NCBI RefSeq assembly: GCF_002043005.1 | Contig: NZ_CP020330.1 | Span: 4,296,001 to 4,360,000 of the forward strand | Origin: Martelella mediterranea DSM 17316 | GTDB taxonomy: Bacteria; Pseudomonadota; Alphaproteobacteria; Rhizobiales; Rhizobiaceae | Direction: 5' to 3' | Length of the DNA stretch: 64,000 bases | Shown here: positions 15,133-16,450 of the stretch, one piece after another | Position numbering within the stretch: the first letter of the stretch is position 1 | How the letters are laid out: each line of letters starts with the position of its first letter | Made by a program: the position numbers and the translations under genes | Notes under the pieces: model-generated | What the model saw: only the letters and a program-made list of their open reading frames with translations | Told to the model about the DNA's origin: nothing | Databases searched by the model: none

Positions 15133-15275
15133 GTCATCCTCGGCCTTGTGCCGAGGATCTAAGCACGGATCAACGCGAGGAGCGTCTCGGGAAAAAAGTG
15201 ACCTCAAACACACTCCCTTCCGGCGCGCCAACGCCGCTCGCGCGGAACGGACGTCATCCTCGGGTCAAGCCCGAG
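15133..15275. repeat. Composite intergenic repeat, copy B, left part (interrupted by IS110)
   Basis: The head palindrome (15133-15160, GTCATCCTCGGCC...CCGAGGATCT) and tail palindrome (from 15253, GTCATCCTCGGG-TCAAG-CCCGAG) match copy A at 12831-13008. The tail palindrome stops at 15275 in mid-arm. Its missing GATGAC and trailer reappear at 16416, on the far side of the IS110 element. Confidence 0.8.
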
Positions 15276-15293
15276 CAACTGTGTGCTTTTCTG

Positions 15294-16235
15294 TCAAGTT
15301 GTTTGTGCATTGAGGATTGGTCTTTGCTCCCGAATGGCTGTGTTGAGGGCGACGAGGAGCTTTCTGGCGATGGCGACGATCGCGGCTTTGGGTGCCTTGC
15401 CGCGGCTTCGCAGATGGTCGTAGTCCTGTTTCCACCGGCCGGTTCTGATCGCGGCAAGGGCGGCCATGTAGAGGGCATCGCGCACCCGCTTTCGCCCACC
15501 CTGGACATGGCGTTTGCCGCGCATGAGGCCGGATTCACGCGCGATTGGCGCCACGCCGGCCAGGGCGGCGATGGCGCGCCGGTCAACCAGGCCCAGTTCG
15601 GGCAGGCTGGCAAGGATTATGGCGGTGCAAACCGGCCCGACGCCTGCGGCCGAACGCAGCAGCGCCGCATCGCGGGCAAGATCGCAGGTCTCTTTGATGG
15701 CATTGGCGATCTGCCGCTCAAGCGCGCGGATCTGGACGTCGAGCAAGGCGATCACCGCCTCCAGGCTTTCCGTCACCACCGGATCGGCGACGCCCTTCAG
15801 GCGGATACGTTCGGCCTTGCGCATCGCGACCAACTGGTCGCGGCGGCTGTTGAGGCCCTGAAGCTTCAGCCGTTCGGGCGAAACCGGGGCGGTGGCCGGC
15901 AGGTCGAGATTGGCGCCGTAAAACGCCAGCATGCGCGCATCCACCGCATCGGTCTTGGCCAGCATGCCGATGGAGCGGGCAAAGTCCCGGGCGCGGCGGG
16001 GATTGGCGCGATGGAAGGAAAGCTCCGCCTTCTCAAGCGCCCGCACCAATGGCTGGTCCCACGGGGCGGTGGCTTCCAGCACCACGAAAGCCCGGTGTTC
16101 GAGCGCAAGGCCGATCAGGGCGGCGATGCCCGCCGGATCGTTGGAAAAGCTGCACGACCTGGCAGCCGGGTGAAGATAAACATCGAGACGCTGACCGGAG
16201 ACATCGCAACCGATCGTGTTTTGTGGCAAGGTCAT
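15294..16235 (-). CDS. IS110-family transposase (DEDD/serine bridge recombinase)
   Basis: This encodes a 313-residue recombinase. The N-terminal RuvC-like domain has the four acidic residues of the family: Asp11 (GCDVSG), Glu54 (VVLEAT), and Asp96 and Asp99 (KTDAVDAR). A coiled middle (about 120-190) leads to the transposase_20 domain, with AAGVGPVCTAIILA, LAGVAPIARESG and GKRHVQGGRKRVR. The Ser in RESG (235) is the expected nucleophile. The frame is intact from ATG to TGA, so the protein is probably active. Its ATG lies 178 nt inside the element, leaving room for the guide RNA upstream. IS621-type relatives use such an RNA to choose donor and target. Confidence 0.95.
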   Translation of the reverse strand: MTLPQNTIGCDVSGQRLDVYLHPAARSCSFSNDPAGIAALIGLALEHRAFVVLEATAPWDQPLVRALEKAELSFHRANPRRARDFARSIGMLAKTDAVDARMLAFYGANLDLPATAPVSPERLKLQGLNSRRDQLVAMRKAERIRLKGVADPVVTESLEAVIALLDVQIRALERQIANAIKETCDLARDAALLRSAAGVGPVCTAIILASLPELGLVDRRAIAALAGVAPIARESGLMRGKRHVQGGRKRVRDALYMAALAAIRTGRWKQDYDHLRSRGKAPKAAIVAIARKLLVALNTAIREQRPILNAQTT

Positions 16236-16239
16236 GATC

Positions 16240-16413
16240 CCATCCTTGTCCTACGGGCTCGGCGCGCCAACGCCGGCCCCGGCAACTGTTCGGGGTGGTT
16301 GACGAAAGGCGGGCGGCGTTTCCAGCTCGGGCACGGTCGCATAACGACCAAGGATGACACGAAACACCGTCCGCCAATCAGACTGCCGCGTTCACGGCAG
16401 ACGTCAACAGACA
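16240..16413 (-). ncRNA. Candidate IS110 bridge RNA (target- and donor-binding loops)
   Basis: The region is read on the minus strand from the left end of the element toward the recombinase start. (1) A 5' hairpin: CTGCCG (16395-16400) pairs with CGGCAG (16383-16388). (2) A target-binding loop: a 15-bp stem with one mismatch (16361-16375 with 16309-16323), left guide GTCATCCT (16351-16358), apical hairpin GGTCG/CGACC (16335-16349), right guide GCCCGAG (16326-16332). (3) A donor-binding loop: left guide ACAGTTGC (16282-16289), GC-rich apical hairpin (16254-16281), right guide GACAAG (16245-16250). Target guides match the flanking genomic DNA and donor guides match the element's own ends. Exact transcript ends are unknown. 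Folding was done by eye. Confidence 0.85.
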
Positions 16414-16415
16414 AG

Positions 16416-16450
16416 GATGACGTCCGTAAAAAGGATAGGTCTGTCAATAT
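16416..16450. repeat. Composite intergenic repeat, copy B, right part
   Basis: GATGACGTCCGTAAAA followed by a CTGTCAA trailer matches the tail of copy A at 12976-13007. It is the displaced right half of the palindrome split by the IS110 element. Confidence 0.8.

Follow-up and report, generated by a model that had tools for sequence, protein, structure and literature searches.

An IS110-group insertion sequence of Martelella mediterranea with a well-supported bridge RNA in its left end

The element, its recombinase and its genomic copies

We identified an insertion sequence of the IS110 group on the minus strand of the window, by which we mean the whole stretch of 64,000 nucleotides analysed, from contig NZ_CP020330.1 of Martelella mediterranea DSM 17316. 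Its boundaries were placed from the palindrome that it splits and from five copies in the host genome, and its parts are as follows.

15276..16415, minus strand: whole IS110-group element, 1140 bp including one CT core
15294..16235, minus strand: DEDD recombinase of 313 aa (DEDD_Tnp_IS110 and Transposase_20), from domain search
16236..16413, minus strand: left non-coding end, 178 nt, which contains the bridge RNA
16414..16415, minus strand: CT core, left junction
15274..15275, minus strand: CT core, right junction
15276..15293, minus strand: short right non-coding end, with terminal letters CACAGTTG

The ATG of the recombinase lies at 16235, and the left end starts exactly at 16413, directly after the CT core at 16414-16415. 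Both junctions of the window copy carry CT, the core common to target and donor, and the two non-coding ends are of unequal length, with 178 nt in the RNA-bearing left end versus 18 nt before the core on the right. The 313-aa recombinase contains PF01548 and PF02371 above the cut-off, and its relatives among PDB sequences are the ISCro4 and IS621 transposases. All the catalytic residues that the initial annotation had called intact are indeed present (D11, E54, D96, D99 and S235), and these, with G236 following the serine, are aligned opposite D11, E60, D102, D105 and S241-G242 of IS621, as numbered in PMC11208158.

Within the 5.7-Mb host genome, we identified five copies of the element, all on contig C1 and all with a recombinase frame that is open and without stops, the proteins of the other copies being 95-98% identical to that of the window. 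The left end is the same in four copies and has a single changed base in the fifth (1/178 variable sites), a low variation that is not clean evidence of constraint, because the variation in the recombinase gene (51/942 sites) is concentrated in one patch at about bases 440-700. The copies resolve into two groups, of L001 and L002, and of L003, L004 and L005, which differ mainly in one patch of the gene, and this difference looks like recombination between variants. All five copies are found on the minus strand, within 1.1 Mb (G000:C1:3224874-4312427). We have left this orientation bias (5/5 on the minus strand of C1) as chance, given a two-sided value of about 0.06 and empty target sites in both directions (26 forward, 21 reverse). 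Elsewhere in the same genome, locus L120 (G000:C1:760608-762889) holds two IS110 types head to head, with bridge RNA matches 111 bases apart.

Structure of the left end and its conservation in relatives

The initial annotation had read a 5' hairpin, a target-binding loop and a donor-binding loop in the 178-nt non-coding end, and had given coordinates and a length for that end which are correct. The same domains were recovered by folding 16240-16413 on the minus strand; the 15-bp stem of the target loop, described as having one mismatch, is borne out with an A/C mismatch in the predicted fold, and the GC-rich hairpin at the apex of the donor loop is present. The structural features of the RNA are listed below.

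16383..16400, minus strand: 5' hairpin CTGCCG/CGGCAG, from the fold, its pairing kept with other letters in Aurantimonas L016
16308..16375, minus strand: target-binding loop, with stem arms at 16361-16375 and 16308-16322, from the fold and relatives
16335..16349, minus strand: apical hairpin of the target loop, from the fold and relatives
16239..16294, minus strand: donor-binding loop with basal stem CCCG/UGGG, from relatives and the fold of the domain
16255..16280, minus strand: GC-rich apical hairpin of the donor loop, from the fold and relatives

The fold of 16240-16413 has a minimum free energy of -79.1 and a z of -2.71, with 0/200 shuffles equally stable. A fold started at 16405 gave the same domains (z -2.20, 5/200 shuffles equally stable), and a fold that included flanking bases (16236-16420) gave a z of -4.25 (0/200), the 5' end pairing instead with the right donor guide. 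The basal stem CCCG/UGGG of the donor loop is weak in the whole fold, and reaches pair probabilities of 0.77-0.89 when the domain is folded alone. We additionally noted that, in the predicted fold, GTTGACG at the 5' end and CGTCAAC after the target loop pair with one another (16402-16408 and 16298-16304), closing the hairpin and the target loop into one junction. The fold is by itself unpersuasive, and it is the comparisons with relatives that carry the evidence.

Relatives were collected by protein search from named genomes (13 loci), from genomes of the family (34/297 matched at 1e-40, the window's own counted), of the order (45/397, own counted) and of the class (2/385 at 1e-60, one of the two being that of the window), and additional copies were taken for several of the relatives. 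Closer relatives were found neither in viral contigs nor in plasmids, the latter searched by tblastn at 1e-60. Twenty-five left ends, including that of the window, were hand-picked for readable ends and a donor-guide motif, and aligned.

From these 25 elements, and with no structure supplied, RNAalifold recovered both loops in 29 pairs, 18 of them with changes on both sides. Over the 24 pairs that we counted, standard pairs fill 94.7% of 587 cells versus 82.3% in shuffles, and the compensatory stem changes that the initial annotation had named as its own test were found in 18/24 pairs, versus 7.9 in shuffles. None of 500 shuffles reached the observed co-variation on any of five measures, although such counts overstate significance, since the relatives are not independent. 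Sliding the partners by 1 to 3 columns lowered the pairing to 35-45%, a control that is biased in favour because the counted structure was derived from the same alignment. For the 5' hairpin, inspection by eye of the 25 rows found it common only to the window and Aurantimonas L016, with different arm letters and the pairing kept; L108 has a different hairpin at this place, and the remaining rows have no clear one.

Rfam at gathering scores gave no match in the whole window, and we therefore built a covariance model, using the 25 aligned left ends. Searched against the host genome at E up to 0.001, the model gave 13 matches, comprising the five copies, six elements of another IS110 type and two further places; the match lies directly upstream of an IS110 recombinase in 12 cases, and the remaining match is at C1:2372645. 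The model was also run against 44 sources, consisting of 43 loci of relatives (among them L039, a near-copy of a training row) and the window, whose left end was also used in training. These yielded 38 matches at E up to 0.1, 36 of them upstream of a recombinase, with none in eight sources; the two off-place matches are in L083 and, in antisense, in L061.

Guides, insertion site and core

The two loops each hold two stretches that match DNA at the junctions of the element, and the element itself splits a REP-like palindrome.

16351..16358, minus strand: left target guide GUCAUCCU, including the core, which matches the left flank GTCATCCT of all five genomic copies
16326..16332, minus strand: right target guide GCCCGAG, complement of CTCGGGC (core and right flank)
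16282..16290, minus strand: left donor guide AACAGUUGC, of which ACAGUUGC matches the right end CACAGTTGC
16245..16250, minus strand: right donor guide GACAAG, complement of CTTGTC (core and left end)
16416..16427, minus strand: left part of the split REP-like palindrome (with core: ACGGACGTCATCCT)
15247..15273, minus strand: right part of the split palindrome (CGGGCTTGACCCGAGGATGACGTCCGT)

When joined, the flanks of the window copy read ACGGACGTCATCCTCGGG-CTTGA-CCCGAGGATGACGTCCGT, a palindrome with 18 perfect pairs. The five genomic copies all have the same left flank and the right flank CGGGCTTGACCC, the remainder of the right palindrome arm not being kept in copy L003. The host genome contains 47 exact unoccupied GTCATCCTCGGGC sites (26 forward, 21 reverse) versus 0 for the reversed pattern, and these counts, together with the shared half-sites, indicate that insertion is into a REP-like repeat and in a single orientation. 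The two arms of the palindrome are not equivalent targets, because the loop of the repeat is asymmetric, as seen in the flanks of the copies. The pattern GATCCTCGGGCTTGACC, searched in the host genome, gave no match. A second REP-like palindrome (CATCCTCGGCCTTGTGCCGAGGAT) is found at 15135-15158, about 115 bp past the right end of the element. We also observed, at L119:1482-3057 (G367:C4), an IS110 copy that interrupts the bridge RNA gene of a sibling element within the left target guide, the DNA of which reproduces the left target sequence; this sibling has an internally deleted recombinase.

For the left target guide, we set the eight bases adjoining the core on its left against the target-loop positions aligned with them in 25 elements, and found 149/200 matching letters against 92.7 expected, with 0/5000 target shuffles reaching 149. 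On the right, the five bases beyond the core match the 3' side of the loop at 86/110 positions against 52.0 expected, again with 0/5000 shuffles (22 elements). The window element matches at 6/8 left letters, the two mismatches being the outermost, and thus GUCAUCCU and GCCCGAG, core included, match their half-sites unbroken. Mismatches elsewhere were seen in L021 and L044 (4/8 on the left) and in L068 (2/5 on the right).

For the donor guides, 110 loci had enough sequence; the motif was recognisable in 94 (64 distinct) and absent in 16, which include four records of one host-genome copy with a letter change. In 44/64 distinct loci, the left-donor-guide hexamer recurs in the 45 nt that follow the stop codon of the same locus, and hexamers of other types were found there in 91/3170 tests. 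The types found in both places include CAGTTG, CAGTCG, CGGATA and CAGATG, and 20/64 loci miss, some of them since the motif rule took coding sequence or the element is truncated. The right donor guide tracks the left end, in the pairs GACA/TGTC, CACA/TGTG, GATA/TATC (L108) and CATA/TATG (L094), read partly by eye.

Finally, for the core, 22 elements had both junctions readable, and we identified CC in 17 of these and CT in four (the window, L016, L108 and L077), L114 being ambiguous. Thirteen of the 17 CC elements (L019, L020, L024, L041, L042, L044, L067, L072, L075, L094, L099, L102 and L105) have GG in both the right target guide and the right donor guide, the donor letters having been read by pattern in ten and by eye in three, and the target-guide GG of L044 being found only with a one-base shift. 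The CC elements L093, L038, L115 and L068 do not fit: their target guide reads AG and their donor guide either AG or TG, and in the last three the core is embedded in consecutive C residues. Both guides read AG in each of the four CT elements (by eye for the L077 donor). The protein tree places 13/16 CC rows (L093 dropped), these being the 13 with GG in the guides, and two unlabelled rows in one clade (99/88), which adjoins the CT pair of the window. The core T is described as almost invariant in IS621 and related orthologues (PMC11208158), and our literature search on the IS110 core dinucleotide found nothing beyond the two Nature papers. From these elements, the core dinucleotide seems to have changed in nature in step with the guide letters that read it.

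Transcription, competing readings and relation to known systems

Taken as a whole, the anatomy of the element, the structure of its left end, the matches of guides to target and to donor with their co-variation, and the repeated insertion at the predicted site are best explained by an insertion sequence of the IS110 group whose DEDD/serine recombinase is intact and whose left end encodes a bridge RNA, a reading that we hold with little doubt. The bridge RNA proposed in the initial annotation is supported both by the compensatory changes and by the guide matches to each element's own target and donor DNA. We infer transcription of the RNA and its start point, its binding by the protein, catalysis and activity of the element. 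The excised element would be a circle that joins the right end, CT and the left end, and a promoter split across the circle junction would make the bridge RNA. In the donor loop, ACAGUUGC and GACAAG would base-pair with the joined ends of the element itself, and the recombinase would exchange strands at the shared CT, a mechanism taken from IS621.

A junction promoter is reported for IS621 (PMC11208160, PMC11208158). We scored the best sigma-70-like pair straddling the junction in the joined ends of 22 elements, and the candidate of the window includes the following box.

15292..15297, minus strand: candidate -35 TTGACA, which in the circle would be paired across the junction with a TG-C-TTGTCT -10

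Leaving aside the window and Aurantimonas, 15/20 elements have a TTGCC box ending the right end and a -10 within the left end, at a spacing of 17 in 12 of the 15, although taken singly many of these pairs are equalled by shuffles (up to 22/200 among the 15). The best pair in the window and in Aurantimonas lies 19 bases further upstream, with TTGACA or TTGACG over the recombinase stop codon and TG-C-TTGTCT at the junction. The window candidate TTGACA-17-TTGTCT, with an extended TG, is equalled or bettered by 3/200 shuffles (19/200 for L016), and its -10 is poor, with 2/6 letters, helped only by the extended TG. An RNA made from the candidate promoters of the window and Aurantimonas would start near the 5' hairpin, past the donor.

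We offer tentatively, and as a possibility that we ourselves doubt, a self-lock in which the bridge RNA would be licensed only by excision. An RNA read through from the flank would contain both the right donor guide and the left end that this guide complements, and would fold shut; an RNA started at the circle junction would stay open, because its start lies past the donor. When folded with 12 flank bases, 23/25 elements show at least six expected pairs that join the 5'-terminal 20 bases to the 3'-terminal 34, versus 10/25 in a control with the 5' bases shuffled (mean of 10 each); this pairing is not evidence of selection, because it is partly automatic from the guide complementarity. It is absent in L093 and L114.

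Three other readings of the left end were weighed against that of a working bridge RNA. The fold might be a by-product of GC-rich, palindrome-rich DNA, without RNA function, and taken alone it outperforms shuffles by a modest margin only (z -2.2 to -2.7); this reading is contradicted by the compensatory changes and by the guide co-variation, and we find it scarcely credible. It is very improbable, too, that the left end serves only to regulate translation of the recombinase, as a structured leader or a small RNA of the type reported for ISPpu9, and has no part in guiding recombination. The RNA does lie directly upstream of the ATG, and small RNAs that regulate the ISPpu9 transposase have been published, but regulation alone leaves unexplained why the loop letters track the target and the ends of each element. 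A bridge RNA may also have a regulatory side role.

The RNA might otherwise be a true bridge RNA by descent in a copy that is no longer mobile, either because the RNA is not made or because the protein is inactive. The weak promoter match of the window would agree with such a loss, and relics do occur, as in Aurantimonas; however, all five host copies are open-framed, with left ends that are identical in four and one base off in the fifth, and the proteins of the other copies remain 95-98% identical to that of the window, in which the catalytic residues are present. We therefore judge an immobile copy unlikely, and retain the reading of an intact element with its bridge RNA.

Compared with known systems, the element resembles IS621 of E. 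coli in layout, as described in PMC11208160 and PMC11208158: the RNA lies in the left end, in the order 5' stem-loop (a predicted one in the window element), target loop, donor loop, with two guides per loop, a CT core, a REP target, and DEDD and serine residues. It differs from IS621 in its distant protein (PDB-sequence match to 8wt6, E 2e-27), in having another target, and in its candidate -35, which would overlap the recombinase stop codon. The element of Aurantimonas manganoxydans (L016 and its copies) has a recombinase 63% identical to that of the window, the same target and donor guide letters, the same kind of REP-like target, and a 5' hairpin at the same place, but different letters in the stems and hairpin. 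Two of the six Aurantimonas copies fetched, unlike the window element, have a broken recombinase frame. These two, L025 and L026, keep the bridge RNA, and their frame is broken near residue 156; thus, they could move only with help in trans.

ISRm19 of Sinorhizobium meliloti is likewise a rhizobial IS110-family element in REP, with 4/4 copies reported within REP sequences (PMC1525189). The IS1111 group and its seekRNA (ISPa11 and others) share with the window element an RNA-guided DEDD recombinase, and ISPa11 targets REP; in that group, however, the long non-coding end and the RNA are downstream of the gene, whereas the window RNA is upstream, and there are subterminal inverted repeats of 7-17 bp (PMC11187229). 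Between the 50 nt of the left end and the 45 nt of the right end we found no exact inverted repeat of at least 7 bp, the longest being 6 bp and displaced. We rejected membership of the IS1111 group on the lack of subterminal repeats of 7-17 bp and the position of the RNA in the left end.

According to PMC11208160, 85.7% of IS110-group elements have a predicted bridge RNA, and insertion into REP has been documented for the IS110-family elements IS621, ISPa11, ISPpu9, ISPpu10 and ISRm19, so an element such as that of the window is expected in kind. The fresher results are the CC-core relatives, most with fitted guides, and the predicted self-occupied donor guide in read-through RNA. The joint change of core and guides that these relatives suggest bears on the freedom to reprogram the core. 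The element itself provides a well-supported alphaproteobacterial bridge RNA whose target is defined and present in many natural copies, useful as a new orthologue for RNA-guided recombination.
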